This document shows, in pieces, positions 3,485 through 39,271 of a stretch of 40,382 nt of DNA. The notes below the pieces were generated by a model that was not told where the DNA came from, did no database searches, and saw only the letters and a list, made by a program, of their open reading frames with translations. The DNA is from a virus. The DNA lies in the IMG/VR virus record IMGVR_UViG_3300031539_000114, positions 1-40,382 of that record, one strand, 5' to 3'. The translations under genes were made by a program, and so were the position numbers. Each line of letters starts with the position of its first letter. Position 1 is the first letter of the stretch.

Positions 3485-3509
3485 CCGGCGCTAGGCCGGG
3501 AGAAAGGAA
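3485..3509 (+). promoter_or_regulatory. Leader hairpin plus Shine-Dalgarno (module 1)
   Basis: CCGGC (3485-3489) pairs with GCCGG (3495-3499), loop GCTAG, directly followed by AGAAAGGAA and the ATG at 3514. First of a series of similar modules. Confidence 0.5.
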
Positions 3510-3900: not shown

Positions 3901-3916
3901 CGCCGCCGGCAACATC

Positions 3917-3943
3917 CCCGGCGCTGAGGCCGGGAGAAAGGAA
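3917..3943 (+). promoter_or_regulatory. Leader hairpin plus Shine-Dalgarno (module 2)
   Basis: CCCGGC (3917-3922) pairs with GCCGGG (3929-3934), loop GCTGAG, then AGAAAGGAA and the ATG at 3949. The stem-loop is identical to that at 4358-4375. Confidence 0.5.
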
Positions 3944-3948
3944 AACCC

Positions 3949-4344
3949 ATGTCTACTGAGCGAATTGGGCTGATGGACAATACGAGAGACATAGTTACCA
4001 AGCTCGCAGAGGGCAATCCGGGTGCAACGCGCGTTTGCTGTGAGCTGCTAACGTTCGGAGGCGAGATTGACCCCGATAGCGCGCTGGGGGGATTGGGAGC
4101 ATTGCTGGAACTTGACAGCCAAGGCATCTACGGTCCTCGCATTTGGATGCTCTACAAGGACGTTTGCGGCGAGAGCCTACTACAAACCGTGGCAGCGCTC
4201 CGAGCCGCGCAGCTTGGCCTGTTGCCAGATACGGAGTTGTCGCACGCAATTGACCACTACGGGAGCGGCGTTGATCCGGCCAAGGTGCTGGACTTGGTGC
4301 GCACGCGCCTGCCGCGATTTGCGGCAGAGAATCCTGCTGCGTAG
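3949..4344 (+). CDS. Hypothetical protein, 131 aa
   Basis: A soluble, helical, leucine- and acid-rich product starting MSTERIGLMDNTRD. An internal ATG (LMDNTRD) is an alternative start, but the first ATG has the better Shine-Dalgarno, AGAAAGGAA. It looks like a genuinely conserved phage protein (balanced composition, well-formed helices), but no function is known to me. It is the last gene before the structured RNA region. Confidence 0.6.
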   Translation: MSTERIGLMDNTRDIVTKLAEGNPGATRVCCELLTFGGEIDPDSALGGLGALLELDSQGIYGPRIWMLYKDVCGESLLQTVAALRAAQLGLLPDTELSHAIDHYGSGVDPAKVLDLVRTRLPRFAAENPAA

Positions 4345-4357
4345 ATAGGCCTGCGGC

Positions 4358-4375
4358 CCCGGCGCTGAGGCCGGG
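4358..4375 (+). promoter_or_regulatory. Hairpin upstream of the non-coding region (module 3)
   Basis: CCCGGC (4358-4363) and GCCGGG (4370-4375) with loop GCTGAG, the same stem-loop as at 3917-3934. Here it is followed by AGCATCTTTGAC and no gene, so it precedes the structured RNA instead of a Shine-Dalgarno. It could be a processing or stability element, or a weak terminator for the gene before it. Confidence 0.4.
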
Positions 4376-4407
4376 AGCATCTTTGACAACCGAACAGCGA
4401 CGAAATA

Positions 4408-5306
4408 GGTGCTGGCGGGCGGCGGCGCAGACCTGGGCTGATCTCATTGAGTGAGCCGCCGGGCAACCCCGGGGGCCGTGTTGCGGCCCCCGCCCCGCCA
4501 GCACCATCAGCATTGCCCCTCTGCGGCGTGGCAGCGCCTAGCTCGTCCCGGAACTGCCAACTTCCGGGAAGCCGGTAGGCTTGCGGTTCAACCGGGAATC
4601 CGGCCAGGGGGGCAACAGTATTGCCCCGTGCGAGACGAGGGAAGCCGGTGAAGCGTACAACCCTAACAAGGTTGCGTGGGCCTCGCGGAACAGCGGAACG
4701 CTGCACCCCCGGTTGGACTATCGGGGGAGTTGCCGCTGATAACCCTGACTTGACAGGGCGCCGCAACAGACCGGCCACGGGGCACCAGTAGCTTGCCCGC
4801 CACGTTGCGGGTGGAGTACCGATTCCGCCTACGGGTGGAATCTGCATCAAGCGGCGTGCGGCGCGGGACAACCGCGAGGCGGCCTCTGATCCAGCAGGGA
4901 AGATGTGTTCAGCCGAAAGGCCCGCGTACTGGACGATGCCGGTGAGAGACCGGCACGCCGCCTTACCGCGAACCGGCGAGTCGCGGGATAGCAAGTAACC
5001 GCCGGCGCATCGCATCTCCTTCTTCGGTTCGCCGTCGTCAGAGATGGCGGCGGCGGGCTTACAACGCCGTGGCCCCGAGGCGACATTTCGGGGCTCGCGG
5101 CAGTGGAAGAGGTATTTCCTCAATCGCGGCGTGGCCGCAAGGAGATGAGGCGATGAACCGTGCCGGGGAAAGCCCGGCGAGTACCCGCCGTCGAGGGACA
5201 CCCCGGCGGCGGGCGTCTGCGGAACGCCGCGCTTGACTTGTTTGTGGCAGGGCCGGCAGGCCCACCAGGCGTGACCTTCGGCGCCGTTCCAGAGTGAACG
5301 GGCAAT
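4408..5306 (+). ncRNA. Large structured non-coding RNA, family not assigned
   Basis: About 0.9 kb without a credible gene but dense in helices. A 12-bp long-range stem (GGTGCTGGCGGG 4408-4419 with 4494-4505) encloses CGGCGGC 4420-4426/4455-4461 and an 8-bp hairpin 4471-4491. CTCGTC 4542-4547/4634-4639 encloses hairpins 4548-4568 and 4609-4627. GCGG+AAC 4685-4691/4729-4736 closes a three-way junction. Further hairpins include 4821-4842 (9 bp with a UACG tetraloop), 4937-4955, 4966-4986, 5072-5094, 5162-5178 and 5284-5301. Large ornate RNAs such as GOLLD and ROOL occur in phages next to tRNAs, so one of these or a new class is plausible. The 5' and 3' ends are estimates; no promoter is convincing. 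Confidence 0.7.
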
Positions 5307-5415
5307 CGGGCCTTCGTCCAGAGAAGGATACCGTGCGACTGACCGATCCTGCTACTCGGCCGGGCGGCAGGGGTAGGGATGTACGGAGACGCGGGTTCAA
5401 TCCCCGCAGGCCCGT
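5307..5415 (+). tRNA. tRNA-like element with extended anticodon-position arm
   Basis: A 7-bp acceptor stem (CGGGCCT 5307-5313 with AGGCCCG 5408-5414) and a perfect T-arm (GCGGG, loop TTCAATC, CCCGC; 5391-5407) abut as in a tRNA. A 4-bp D-like stem (5316-5319/5326-5329), T at position 8, A at 14, a possible G15-C48 pair and a 4-base variable loop also fit. The anticodon arm does not: stem CCGTGC 5331-5336/GTACGG 5381-5386 carries a 44-base insert with an inner helix CCTGC 5348-5352/GCAGG 5367-5371. No 7-base anticodon loop and no encoded CCA. It is probably the 3' domain of the upstream RNA or a tRNA mimic rather than a working tRNA. Confidence 0.5.
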
Positions 5416-5417
5416 GT

Positions 5418-5600
5418 ATGGGACGAAACAGGACAAAATGGTGTGAACGGTGTGGCGCGGGCCGATGGTCCAAGGCGAGGTTCAGGGTCATTTTCTGGTA
5501 CGTCGGCGGCATTCGGGTCAGGGCCGAAGCGGTCTGCCTCGATTGCTTGTCCCGACTGCAAGTTCGTGACGCCCCTGAACTTGAGTACAGAGTGCGCTAG
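5418..5600 (+). CDS. Small zinc-ribbon protein
   Basis: The 60-residue product starts at ATG 5418, just after the tRNA-like element, and carries CERCG (about 8-12) and CLDCL (about 40-44), a minimal two-knuckle zinc-ribbon. No leader hairpin of its own is seen and the Shine-Dalgarno is poor; the frame stays open upstream through the tRNA-like element, but that part would be RNA. Function unknown. Confidence 0.5.
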   Translation: MGRNRTKWCERCGAGRWSKARFRVIFWYVGGIRVRAEAVCLDCLSRLQVRDAPELEYRVR

Positions 5601-5652
5601 CCCGGCCAGCTGCGGCCCGGCAAGCTGACAACGGCGCAGGAAAGGATAAACC

Positions 5653-5967
5653 ATGTACGATGACGAACCCTGTCAGAAAAAGGGCTGCACCCGTAGTGGC
5701 CCCAGAGTCGGCATAGCGGCTCTCGTTCAAGCCCACCTGTGCCCCGCGCATCGGCTCGCGGTGACTCGCTGGCTGAATGAGCAAGACGCATTTCACCATG
5801 TGGAAACCATGCGCCTGCAATGGACTGCCAGGCTGACCTGCGCGTCCGGGGGCGCCGTCTGGCACGCTTCGGACAAGGAGGCAGTAGAACTCGTTGCTGG
5901 CCAGCGCGACTTGGCCGGCCGTGTGCTGGGCTGGCTCGACACCCTGGACGAACCGACGGCAGCCTGA
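5653..5967 (+). CDS. Hypothetical protein, 104 aa
   Basis: Starts MYDDEPCQKKGC behind AGGAAAGGA. It has C7, C12 and a CPAH segment (about 30-33) that together could form a treble-clef-like zinc site, then a helical C-terminus. A weak GGCC/GGCC hairpin (5604-5617) lies upstream. No family recognised. Confidence 0.55.
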   Translation: MYDDEPCQKKGCTRSGPRVGIAALVQAHLCPAHRLAVTRWLNEQDAFHHVETMRLQWTARLTCASGGAVWHASDKEAVELVAGQRDLAGRVLGWLDTLDEPTAA

Positions 5968-5974
5968 CAACTGA

Positions 5975-5998
5975 CCCGCAAGGGCGGGAGGAAGGAAT
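5975..5998 (+). promoter_or_regulatory. Leader hairpin plus Shine-Dalgarno (module 4)
   Basis: CCCGC (5975-5979) pairs with GCGGG (5984-5988), loop AAGG, directly followed by AGGAAGGAA before the ATG at 6003. Confidence 0.5.
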
Positions 5999-6002
5999 CA
6001 TA

Positions 6003-6344
6003 ATGAAAAGCAGCCGCCGCAGATATGTTTGTCCGACGCCCCGAGCGGAATGCAGCGGGGCACCAACAATCGTAGACAGTCATGGACGGACGATAAAGGC
6101 TCATGGGTCCCACGGCGCAGCCTTTGACTGCTATGTCGCGTGGTTACGAACACAGGGATACATCCGAAAGTCAACGCGCGAATTCTATGCGCCAAACGGG
6201 GGACCCATTCTGGTTCTCACAAAAAAGCGTCGGTTCGGCGGCGCGATTCGCGGCGGCAAACGAGGCACAACCTCAGACAGCAAGCGGTTCAATGTTCCTG
6301 GCATTAAGGGGAGTGTTGGCCGTGCGCTGATCGTATCATCGTAA
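6003..6344 (+). CDS. Basic hypothetical protein, 113 aa
   Basis: Starts MKSSRRRYVCPTP; very basic at both ends, with a lysine/arginine/glycine-rich stretch at about residues 73-95. The composition suggests nucleic-acid binding, but no fold is recognisable. Preceded by leader hairpin module 4. Confidence 0.55.
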   Translation: MKSSRRRYVCPTPRAECSGAPTIVDSHGRTIKAHGSHGAAFDCYVAWLRTQGYIRKSTREFYAPNGGPILVLTKKRRFGGAIRGGKRGTTSDSKRFNVPGIKGSVGRALIVSS

Positions 6345-32758: not shown

Positions 32759-34870
32759 GTGTGCGCGACACCACCCGAACTAATTCGCACCAAGGCAGAC
32801 GAGCGCGCCGTCGCGGACGGGTGCTGGGTTGACCTGGCTGCGGCCGAGCGAGTGCGGACGTTCTTCCGCAAGTTCCTACGGCACTCGAAAGGCGAGTGGG
32901 CGGGTCAAACCTTCGAACTTCTGGAGTGGGAATGGACCGACCTTGTTTTACCTCTGTTCGGCTGGATGCGGCCCGATGGTACACGCCGATTTCGCCGGGC
33001 CTATGCCGAGGTTGCGAAGAAGAATGGGAAGGCCCTCGCCCTCAATACGCCACTGCCGACACCTAGCGGCTGGGTGTCCATGGGGGATGTGGATGTCGGC
33101 GATGCGCTGTTCGACGAGAATGGCGACACATGTTCTGTCGTGGCCGTAACGGATGTGCTACTTGGGCGCCCATGCTACCGAGTATCATTCTCTGACGGAA
33201 CCAGCGTTGTTGCAGATGCAGAACACGAATGGGCGGTTCGCTCGCTATCCAAAGAGCGGTCACTCATATTGACAACCAAAGAGATTGCGGGGAGCGTTTC
33301 GACCCGAGCAGATGGAGCCAGGAATTATTCAATTCCCGTGGCTGGCAAACTGAACAGTCGGCCTAGCTCGCTTCGGAAGCAGGCAAGACTCAGGCCAGCG
33401 CCGCCTCGCCTTGCGCGCTCCACTACGCGGCAGATTACATCTGTGGAGCCGGTCGGGTCCGTGCCCGTTAGGTGCATCCAGGTTGACTCCCCGTCATCAC
33501 TCTATCTGTGTGGCGAGGGGATGGTTCCGACGCACAATAGTACCCTATGTGCCGGATTAAGCCTCTATCTGCTGATTGCCGACGGCGAGTCCGGCGCGGA
33601 GGTATACTCGGCCGCCGCTGACCGCGAGCAGGCGTCCATCGTGTTCCGCGAGGCCGCCAGCATGGTCGGGGCCTCGACGGAGCTGTCGGGCCACGTCCAG
33701 GTCATCCCGTCTACGAAGCGACTGGTGTTCCCGCGCACTGGATCATTCTATCACGCCCTATCCGCCGATGCGTACCGGCAGGAAGGGCTGAACATCCACG
33801 GGCTGATCTTTGACGAGCTACACGCCCAGAAGACGCGGGAGTTGTGGGATACCCTGACATACGGCGGCATCGCCCGCCGCCAGCCGCTGCTGATCGCCAT
33901 TACGACCGCTGGCGTGGACCGGGACTCGATTTGCCGCGAGCAGCACAAGTACGCCAAGCAGATTCTCGACGGGATTATCGACGACTGGTCGTTCTTTCCG
34001 TACATTGTTGCTGCCGATGCTGAAGACGATTGGACGGCGCCCGCCACCTGGCGGAAGGCCAACCCCTCATTTGGGGCAACGGTCAAAGAAGAGGAATTCG
34101 CCGAGGCGTGCGCCGAGGCACGGGCGAGCCCGGCGAAAGAGAACTCGTTCAAGCGGTATAGGTTAAATCTCTGGACGCAGCAAGAGGTGCGCTGGCTGCA
34201 ACTCTCGGCGTGGGATGAATGCGCTGGTCCCATAGATGACGCGGCGGTTAAAGACCTGCCCTGCTGGGGCGGGCTCGATCTATCCACGAAGCTGGATCTG
34301 ACGGCCTTTGCCGCAATGTTCCGCCGGCGGGACGGGCACTACCTCTGGCTTCCGTACTTCTGGATTCCCGAGGACACGGCGGCCGAGCGGGAGCGGAAGG
34401 ACAAGGTGCCCTATCTGACCTGGGCGCGGCAGGGACTTATCGAGTTGACGCCCGGCAACGTGATTGACTATGACCGGGTGGTCAAGCGCGTCTGTGAGCT
34501 TTGCCAGAAGTACGGCCTGCGGGACATCGGGGTGGATCGCTGGCAGGCCGAGCACGCCATGCAGAAGCTTGCTGGCCAAGGGCTAGATGTTGTGCCCTAT
34601 GGCCAGGGCTTTCACGATATGTCAGAGCCGACGAAGGAAATGGAAAAACTGATCGTGGGCAAGCAGATTTCCCATGGGGGCAATCCGGTTCTTCGCTGGT
34701 GCGCCAACAACGTCGCCGTGGATACGGATGCGGCCGGCAACCTGAAGCCGAACAAAGCCAAGTCTACCGAGCGGATCGACGGCATTGTGGCTGGCATCAT
34801 CGCCCTGGGGCGGGCCCTGGTGTCGCCGGACGGCAGCATCTATGACCGGCGCGGGGTGGTCTTTGTCTGA
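32759..34870 (+). CDS. terL: Terminase large subunit containing an intein
   Basis: The host protein is about 534 residues after removal of the intein. The N-terminal ATPase has AEVAKKNGK joined to STLCAGLSLYLL; together they form the P-loop KKNGKST. Walker B is in GLIFDELHAQ. The C-terminal nuclease has GGLDLSTKLDLTAFA and GVDRWQAEHAM, as in P27-partner large terminases. It packages DNA into proheads and cuts it. GTG 32759 has a poor Shine-Dalgarno. The intein must be removed for a working ATPase because it splits the P-loop. Confidence 0.88.
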   Translation: MCATPPELIRTKADERAVADGCWVDLAAAERVRTFFRKFLRHSKGEWAGQTFELLEWEWTDLVLPLFGWMRPDGTRRFRRAYAEVAKKNGKALALNTPLPTPSGWVSMGDVDVGDALFDENGDTCSVVAVTDVLLGRPCYRVSFSDGTSVVADAEHEWAVRSLSKERSLILTTKEIAGSVSTRADGARNYSIPVAGKLNSRPSSLRKQARLRPAPPRLARSTTRQITSVEPVGSVPVRCIQVDSPSSLYLCGEGMVPTHNSTLCAGLSLYLLIADGESGAEVYSAAADREQASIVFREAASMVGASTELSGHVQVIPSTKRLVFPRTGSFYHALSADAYRQEGLNIHGLIFDELHAQKTRELWDTLTYGGIARRQPLLIAITTAGVDRDSICREQHKYAKQILDGIIDDWSFFPYIVAADAEDDWTAPATWRKANPSFGATVKEEEFAEACAEARASPAKENSFKRYRLNLWTQQEVRWLQLSAWDECAGPIDDAAVKDLPCWGGLDLSTKLDLTAFAAMFRRRDGHYLWLPYFWIPEDTAAERERKDKVPYLTWARQGLIELTPGNVIDYDRVVKRVCELCQKYGLRDIGVDRWQAEHAMQKLAGQGLDVVPYGQGFHDMSEPTKEMEKLIVGKQISHGGNPVLRWCANNVAVDTDAAGNLKPNKAKSTERIDGIVAGIIALGRALVSPDGSIYDRRGVVFV
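33032..33538 (+). other. Mini-intein in the terminase ATPase P-loop, class 3 pattern
   Basis: Residues 92-260 of the precursor (169 residues) form an intein with no endonuclease domain. Block A ALALNTPLPTPSGW starts with alanine, not cysteine or serine. Block B EHEW has H156/W158; block F begins with C239 (RCIQVDS); the C-terminal junction VPTHN is followed by S261, with T258 and N260. This Trp-Cys-Thr set is the hallmark of class 3 inteins, which splice through a block-F cysteine. The insertion point between GK and ST of the P-loop is a common intein site in terminases. Confidence 0.8.
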
Positions 34871-37915: not shown

Positions 37916-39271
37916 ATGCGTGAGCAAATCGACCAACTCAAGGAGAAATGGACTGCCCTCAGCAAGGGCGCCGACGAGATCGTCCGCAATGCGGACGCCG
38001 AAGGTCGCGCCATGTCTGAGGACGAGGCCAATCGTTTCAACGCCCTTATGGAGCGGCACAAGGTTCTGGGCGCCGACATTGAGCGGCGAGAAGCCCTTCT
38101 GGCTGCCCAGCAGGCCGAAACCGTTTCTGAGCGGAAGACCACTCCCGCCAGTCCCGGCAGCCAGGCCACCAGCCTGATTGTCCCGGCCGGCACGCGGATC
38201 GAGGGATACCGCAGGCGGAAGCGCATGCGGGCCTTCATCGGCGAGCGCGCCGAAGAGCATGCCTACCGCAGTGGCATGTTCCTGCGAGCCACCCTGCTCG
38301 ACGACAAGAAGGCCCGGAACTGGTGCCAGGACCATGGCGTTGAGTTCCGTGTCCAGACCGAAGGCGTCAACACCAAGGGCGGCTTCCTGGTGCCCGACGA
38401 GTTTGAGCGGGCCGTGATCAACCTGCGCGAGGATTATGGCGTCTTTCGGCGGGAGTGCAAGGTGTATCCGATGAGTTCGGATCACGTGATTATCCCCCGC
38501 CGGACCGACGGCCCGTCGGCCAGTTTCGTCGGCGAAACGACCGCGATCACCGAGTCTGAGAAGACCTGGGATCAGGTTACGCTGACGGCCAAGAAACTGG
38601 GCGCCCTGACTCGCATGTCCAGCGACCTGGCCGAGGATGCTGTTATCGACCTGGCCGACGACCTGGCGGACGAGATGGCCTATGCGTTCGCCGCCAAGGA
38701 AGACGCCTGCGGCTTCAACGGGACTGGCGCCGCCGCCTATGGCGGCATGACGGGCATCCTGGTCAAGTTGTTCGACACCACGACCTATGCCGGCAGCGTC
38801 TACACCGCTTTCACCAACCATGACCAGTTCAGCGAGTACGACGCAGCCGACCTTGCGGGGACCATGGGGAAGCTGCCGGCCTATGCACTGCCCGGCGCCA
38901 AGTGGTTCTGCTCGCAGGTCGCCTACTCGCTGGTCTTCGAGCGCCTGTCCGTGGGTTACGGCGGGGCGACCATGCGGGAAGTCGAAGGCGGGATCAAGCC
39001 CTTCTATATGGGCTATCCCATCGTGATTTCCCAGTCCATGCCCACCAGCACCGCGGACATTTCCGGCTACATCGCGCTTCTGTTCGGCGACCTGTCCCAG
39101 GCCGCCACGCTGGGCGACCGGCGCGGCATCACCATCAAGGTGGATGACAGCCGTTACCTGGAGTACGACCAGATCGCCGTGCGGGCTACCCAGCGTTTCG
39201 ATATCAATGTCCACAATATCGGCAACGCCACCACCGCCGGCTCCATCATCGGTCTTGAGGCCGAGACGTAA
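37916..39271 (+). CDS. Major capsid protein, HK97 fold
   Basis: A 451-residue product: a helical N-terminal delta-like domain (about 1-70, coiled-coil pattern) and then the capsid core from VNTKGGFLVPDEFERAVI (about 143-160), with FVGETTAITESEKTWDQVTLTAKKLGALTRMSSDL (about 200-235) and a C-terminal GRRGI-type loop (about 401-406). The delta domain should be removed by the protease upstream. Conserved order portal-protease-capsid confirms the call. A spacer with a hairpin precedes it. Confidence 0.9.
   Translation: MREQIDQLKEKWTALSKGADEIVRNADAEGRAMSEDEANRFNALMERHKVLGADIERREALLAAQQAETVSERKTTPASPGSQATSLIVPAGTRIEGYRRRKRMRAFIGERAEEHAYRSGMFLRATLLDDKKARNWCQDHGVEFRVQTEGVNTKGGFLVPDEFERAVINLREDYGVFRRECKVYPMSSDHVIIPRRTDGPSASFVGETTAITESEKTWDQVTLTAKKLGALTRMSSDLAEDAVIDLADDLADEMAYAFAAKEDACGFNGTGAAAYGGMTGILVKLFDTTTYAGSVYTAFTNHDQFSEYDAADLAGTMGKLPAYALPGAKWFCSQVAYSLVFERLSVGYGGATMREVEGGIKPFYMGYPIVISQSMPTSTADISGYIALLFGDLSQAATLGDRRGITIKVDDSRYLEYDQIAVRATQRFDINVHNIGNATTAGSIIGLEAET

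Follow-up and report, generated by a model that had tools for sequence, protein, structure and literature searches.

The stretch from about 4378 to 5414 on the + strand of the window (the whole 40,382 bases analysed, viral record IMGVR_UViG_3300031539_000114) is best read, from folding and comparison, as an untranslated structured RNA of about 1 kb that is absent from Rfam and would be GOLLD/ROOL-like in character. No recognisable protein is encoded there, the computed stability exceeds that of shuffled sequences and of other parts of the phage, the + strand is preferred, and the 3' end has the shape of a tRNA. That this represents a real structured RNA on the + strand is very likely given the fold predictions; that it is a free-acting large phage RNA with a boxA-like 5' signal and a tRNA-like 3' module is, on balance, the favoured account. 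The original prediction of a large structured phage RNA at 4408-5306 is upheld by the energy relative to shuffles, the strand asymmetry and the absence of coding, but the suggested GOLLD or ROOL identity is not, and the interval, while real, belongs to a longer unit running from the boxA-like motif at about 4378 to the tRNA-like end at 5414.

Phage setting and absence of coding

Protein family searches identify the record as that of a tailed phage, with terminase, portal, prohead protease and HK97-type capsid proteins; it also codes for a RecT-like annealing protein, a PD-(D/E)XK nuclease, DNA methyltransferases and a radical SAM protein. The terminase large subunit (32759-34870) is split within its Walker A motif, between GK and ST, by a sequence resembling a mini-intein that ends in HN; relatives align around this insert. 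The RNA region sits between a 131-aa gene and a probable small gene (Table 1), within one cluster of genes that all lie on the + strand. The ATG at 5418, three bases past the tRNA-like element, is probably the start of this next gene, and no firm protein family was found for the ORF that contains it. Short GC hairpins fused to a ribosome-binding site precede successive genes of the window (3496, 3916, 4357, 5983 and 6359). The copy at 3916-3936 lies directly upstream of the start of the preceding gene, with a similar element at 3496, and unlike these copies before a start codon the hairpin at 4357-4377 runs into the RNA.

The claim that an otherwise gene-packed phage has no credible gene for about 1 kb is borne out, as Pfam, PHROGs and GC periodicity agree that 4345-5414 lacks one on the + strand. 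ORFs over 4346-5378, read in both directions, gave no match in Pfam or PHROGs, so that these searches found no conserved protein in the interval, and coding-type GC periodicity, clear in most but not all flanking genes, is gone from about 4250 to 5500. Given that the frames are negative by all three measures, a protein-coding reading is rejected.

Fold, tRNA-like element and boxA-like motif

Positions 4400-5306 (907 nt, + strand) fold at about -490 kcal/mol versus -428 +/- 9 in dinucleotide shuffles (z -6.8), none of which was as stable. The reverse strand reaches -453 (z -4.5), and this weaker value favours the + strand, the same as that of the neighbouring genes; moreover, 15 of the 194 pairs with probability above 0.9 in the RNA are G-U pairs, which would be lost on the opposite strand. 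Ten other 907-nt phage windows served as controls, and nine of them fell between z -0.6 and +1.0. The tenth (38000-38906), a coding window over the capsid gene, is itself unusually stable at z -4.5; this, and the stable folding of very GC-rich sequence in general, count against the reading.

Two helices singled out at the outset reappear with high pairing probability, namely the 12-bp stem 4408-4419/4494-4505, which is perfect (0.93), and the 9-bp hairpin 4821-4829/4834-4842, whose UACG loop is closed by a C-G pair (0.97); many further helices exceed 0.9. The proposed closed multi-branch junctions fared unevenly, since some are recovered (4673-4683/4918-4928 and 5008-5021/5139-5155) but closure of the big domain depends on the model. 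A closing helix, 4512-4518/5300-5306 (ATTGCCC/GGGCAAT), forms when 4400-5306 is folded alone, but in longer context the local helix 4513-4523/4605-4615 wins over it (P 0.79), and closure of the whole predicted 4512-5306 domain is uncertain. Neither a promoter nor a terminator was recognised near the RNA.

Table 1. Features in and around the structured RNA (window coordinates)
Feature	Position	Strand	Remarks
Upstream gene, 131 aa, unknown function	3949..4344	+	common to 18 other viral contigs
Intergenic hairpin CCCCGGCGCTGAGGCCGGGAG	4357..4377	+	21-nt exact repeat; second copy 3916-3936
boxA-like motif CATCTTTGACA	4378-4388	+	8/11 positions of consensus
Extension of boxA-like motif to ...ACCGAACAGC	ends 4398	+	
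5' domain closed by perfect 12-bp stem	4408..4505	+	pairing probability 0.93
GGCGGC/GCCGCC helix inside 5' domain	4421-4426/4455-4460	+	pairing probability 0.98
9-bp hairpin inside 5' domain	4471-4479/4483-4491	+	pairing probability 0.98
Large structured domain	4512..5306	+	z -6.8
Robust helices (1)	4673-4683/4918-4928, 4743-4747/4895-4899, 4706-4713/4720-4727, 4821-4829/4834-4842	+	mean pairing probability at least 0.91
Robust helices (2)	4937-4943/4949-4955, 5008-5021/5139-5155, 5026-5040/5045-5059, 5184-5193/5204-5213	+	mean pairing probability at least 0.91
tRNA-like cloverleaf	5307..5414	+	abuts 3' end of large domain
Acceptor of tRNA-like element	5307-5313/5408-5414	+	perfect 7 bp
D arm of tRNA-like element	5316-5329	+	
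Long arm of tRNA-like element	5331-5386	+	56 nt, at place of anticodon arm
T arm of tRNA-like element	5391-5407	+	loop TTCAATC
Probable next gene, small protein with cysteine pairs (weak)	5418..5600	+	ORF 5379-5600, GC periodicity

The original prediction drew on giant RNAs that often lie beside tRNAs, and in the ordinary sense this does not apply here: ARAGORN finds zero tRNAs in the window, and a tRNA-like cloverleaf adjoins the 3' end instead. Across 100 shuffled versions of the window, the descriptor of this cloverleaf gave a single match, and a covariance model made from the element picks true tRNA genes in another phage contig (L030; E 2e-4). Acceptor, D and T arms are all present, but a CCA end, the D-loop GG and an ordinary 7-nt anticodon loop are missing, so that, as read, this is no decoding tRNA. 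Neither ARAGORN nor Rfam detects the element. The long arm is the probable cause, and ARAGORN calls the element only once that arm is shortened in silico; neither ARAGORN nor the Rfam tmRNA model gave a tmRNA match. A rival pairing of 4654-4664 with 5375-5385 (P ~0.49) would break the long arm. Descent from a tRNA gene as an attP relic is disfavoured, since the 5' acceptor strand and the D arm are present and no integrase occurs among the proteins tested. Further tRNA-like matches in L003-L005, L016 and L017 were set aside; those in L003 and L016 resemble ordinary tRNAs with long variable regions and are not the same element. A separate observation concerns L034, where three tandem tRNA genes (4649-4765, 4862-4977 and 5076-5198) have anticodon loops grown to about 55-60 nt, which carry a common insert, AATCGAGACTTG...AAACTGCAA, and where similar hairpin spacers lie between the genes.

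The motif at the 5' end, spotted by eye, agrees with the gamma-proteobacterial boxA consensus GYTCTTTAANA (PMC5725501) at 8 of 11 positions and lacks its first two bases. Its extended 18-mer is present in 31 viral contigs, no more than a few-fold excess over the 7 or so that chance would give (our estimate, made from the collection's size). The sites lie mainly outside genes, with 2 of 23 in a same-strand ORF versus 55% of random places. The 300 nt that follow have more stable folds than controls (mean z -2.7 vs -0.8; Mann-Whitney p 5e-5). Together with the tRNA arrays or hammerhead ribozymes near some of the sites, these findings support, but do not prove, that the boxA-like motif marks untranslated structured transcripts. 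A genome scan with the window's boxA-like sequence returned three loci, all unrelated; across 149 genomes from the phylum to which the Pirellula locus belongs, the motif is rare and therefore is not a general ribosomal boxA there.

In L030 (877-13900) the motif is followed by a long tRNA array with 17 tRNA matches and kb-long spacers that have no other Rfam match, and the 260-kb contig L043 holds the same motif region. Type II hammerhead ribozymes follow the motif at distances of about 100 and 640 nt in L036 (1164-1236, - strand) and L042 (1955-2021, + strand), respectively. Tandem copies of about 300 nt, each opening with the boxA-like motif and a near-perfect -35/-10 pair, occur in L031, L032, L047 and L059; these four loci fold at z -5 to -9.5, their repeats have no Rfam match, and in L031, L032 and L059 no 90-aa ORF occurs over 1.8 kb.

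Known RNA families and the search for relatives

Rfam gave no match for the RNA at gathering thresholds. The covariance models of GOLLD and ROOL, the families to which the original prediction had pointed, match neither at the gathering score nor in a relaxed search to E 10, and the RNA is consequently not filed with them. The likeness is one of character. GOLLD is a phage RNA of more than 800 nt with an elaborate fold and an association with tRNAs, which sometimes lie inside its linker (PMC12286853). A homo-oligomeric cage is a further hallmark of GOLLD. Phage origin, a length above 800 nt (the unit here being about 1 kb) and an elaborate predicted fold are found here, and the tRNA-like element may stand for the tRNA association, but there is no covariance-model match and this single element is unusable as a tRNA as read. 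ROOL is likewise an ornate RNA of phages and prophages, often near tRNA islands (PMC12286853), and differs in that no covariance-model match is obtained, ROOL env-120 measures 659 nt against about 1 kb, and no tRNA island is present here. By analogy with both, the RNA may work in the GOLLD/ROOL manner.

Two further comparisons concern layout. Mammalian MALAT1 and NEAT1, which RNase P cuts at mascRNA and menRNA, are described as being alone among lncRNAs in their maturation by tRNA-processing enzymes (PMC12941219); a long noncoding RNA with a tRNA-like end is common to them and the phage RNA, but organism and sequence are unrelated and the analogy is one of layout only. The leaders of boxA-antiterminated ribosomal RNAs similarly place a boxA motif before a long untranslated structured RNA, but the phage motif, at 8 of 11 consensus positions, is a candidate NusB/NusE site by sequence. 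A weak partial match to the Twister-sister ribozyme (RF02681; 4908-4994, 24.9 bits, E 0.011) was rejected: it lies below the gathering score of 34, the conserved internal-loop strand GCUCAU is mostly deleted or changed in the alignment, and the P4 loop differs.

The RNA is known from a single metagenomic contig. No homologue was found by blastn in phages and plasmids, nor by BLAST in the 18 records that share the 131-aa neighbour and 15 that share other proteins; the 18 hold no detectable copy of the RNA. Covariance model R1, built on the domain 5008-5155, found no relative in the collected loci or in 32 and 19 viral records. The exact motif GAAGATGTGTTCAGNNGAA occurs at 8 loci in viral contigs, none a relative (in L106 it is a chance 17-mer beside a gene), and two further exact patterns had zero matches there. 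A contig of only 11.5 kb with an identical terminase (L065) gave no match to the RNA region. One phage that shares the 131-aa gene (L012, IMGVR_UViG_3300027896_000001, 174,649 bp) carries another unclassified structured RNA (5650-6210) about 2 kb downstream of that gene, within an 870-nt stretch (5421-6290) of z -11.8 (10 shuffles) and with a hairpin and T-run near its end like an intrinsic terminator; even a relaxed Rfam search gave it no credible match, and no relative was found.

Proposed role and competing explanations

To our knowledge, only a few giant bacterial RNAs have been described; GOLLD and ROOL are those borne by phages, and their function is unknown. For the transcription, antitermination, cutting and function of the present RNA, we infer the following. 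It would be read on the + strand together with the flanking gene cluster, and the boxA-like 5' signal would let RNA polymerase pass through the untranslated region of about 1 kb without being stopped by Rho. In ribosomal RNA operons, boxA-type signals provide for such passage. Inside the infected cell the RNA might then be active as a free molecule with its own fold, as is thought for GOLLD and ROOL, and the tRNA-like element could help to process or stabilise the 3' end, with a putative RNase P cut at 5306/5307. The full extent of this idea, a new large phage RNA class with a built-in 3' tRNA-like module freed by host tRNA-processing enzymes and with boxA antitermination, a phage counterpart of MALAT1/mascRNA, is speculative and must be considered unlikely.

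The region might instead work in cis, as a long untranslated leader or operon spacer through which expression or processing of the downstream genes is steered, and have no independent function. The single + strand gene cluster, the end of the tRNA-like element just before the probable start at 5418, and the genes 300-700 nt downstream of other boxA-like loci all fit this lesser but appreciable possibility; against it, phage leaders are usually far shorter and simpler than a region of about 1 kb with many closed domains, and Rfam, including the relaxed search, yields no riboswitch family. A remnant of a tRNA region, in which a decayed tRNA gene at 5307-5414 and a GC-rich spacer have no present function, would account for the tRNA-like shape, for the score of true tRNAs with the model of the element, and for the kb-long spacers of the tRNA array in L030. 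Decay, however, would be expected to disrupt the stems of the acceptor, D and T arms, all of them intact, and neither z -6.8 nor perfect helices of 9-15 bp are expected of a spacer, all of which makes a remnant distinctly improbable.

Strong divergence from GOLLD or ROOL is very doubtful: size, phage origin and a tRNA-like neighbour agree with the published description (PMC12286853), but the covariance models are silent even at permissive settings. Nor do the GC-rich inverted repeats make a palindrome-rich DNA feature, such as a replication origin, packaging or recombination site, anything but extremely improbable, given that the stability depends on strand and includes G-U pairs and that iteron-like repeats are absent, similar hairpins occurring as a single pair.

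A free-acting large phage RNA thus remains the preferred reading, and as a single sequence without relatives it represents a candidate, not yet a family. If it proves to be a further, unrelated large phage RNA, this would suggest that phages evolved such RNAs repeatedly. More broadly, the tRNA-like module and the boxA-like leader, if true, would provide an entry to how giant RNAs are made, through RNase P and Nus factors.
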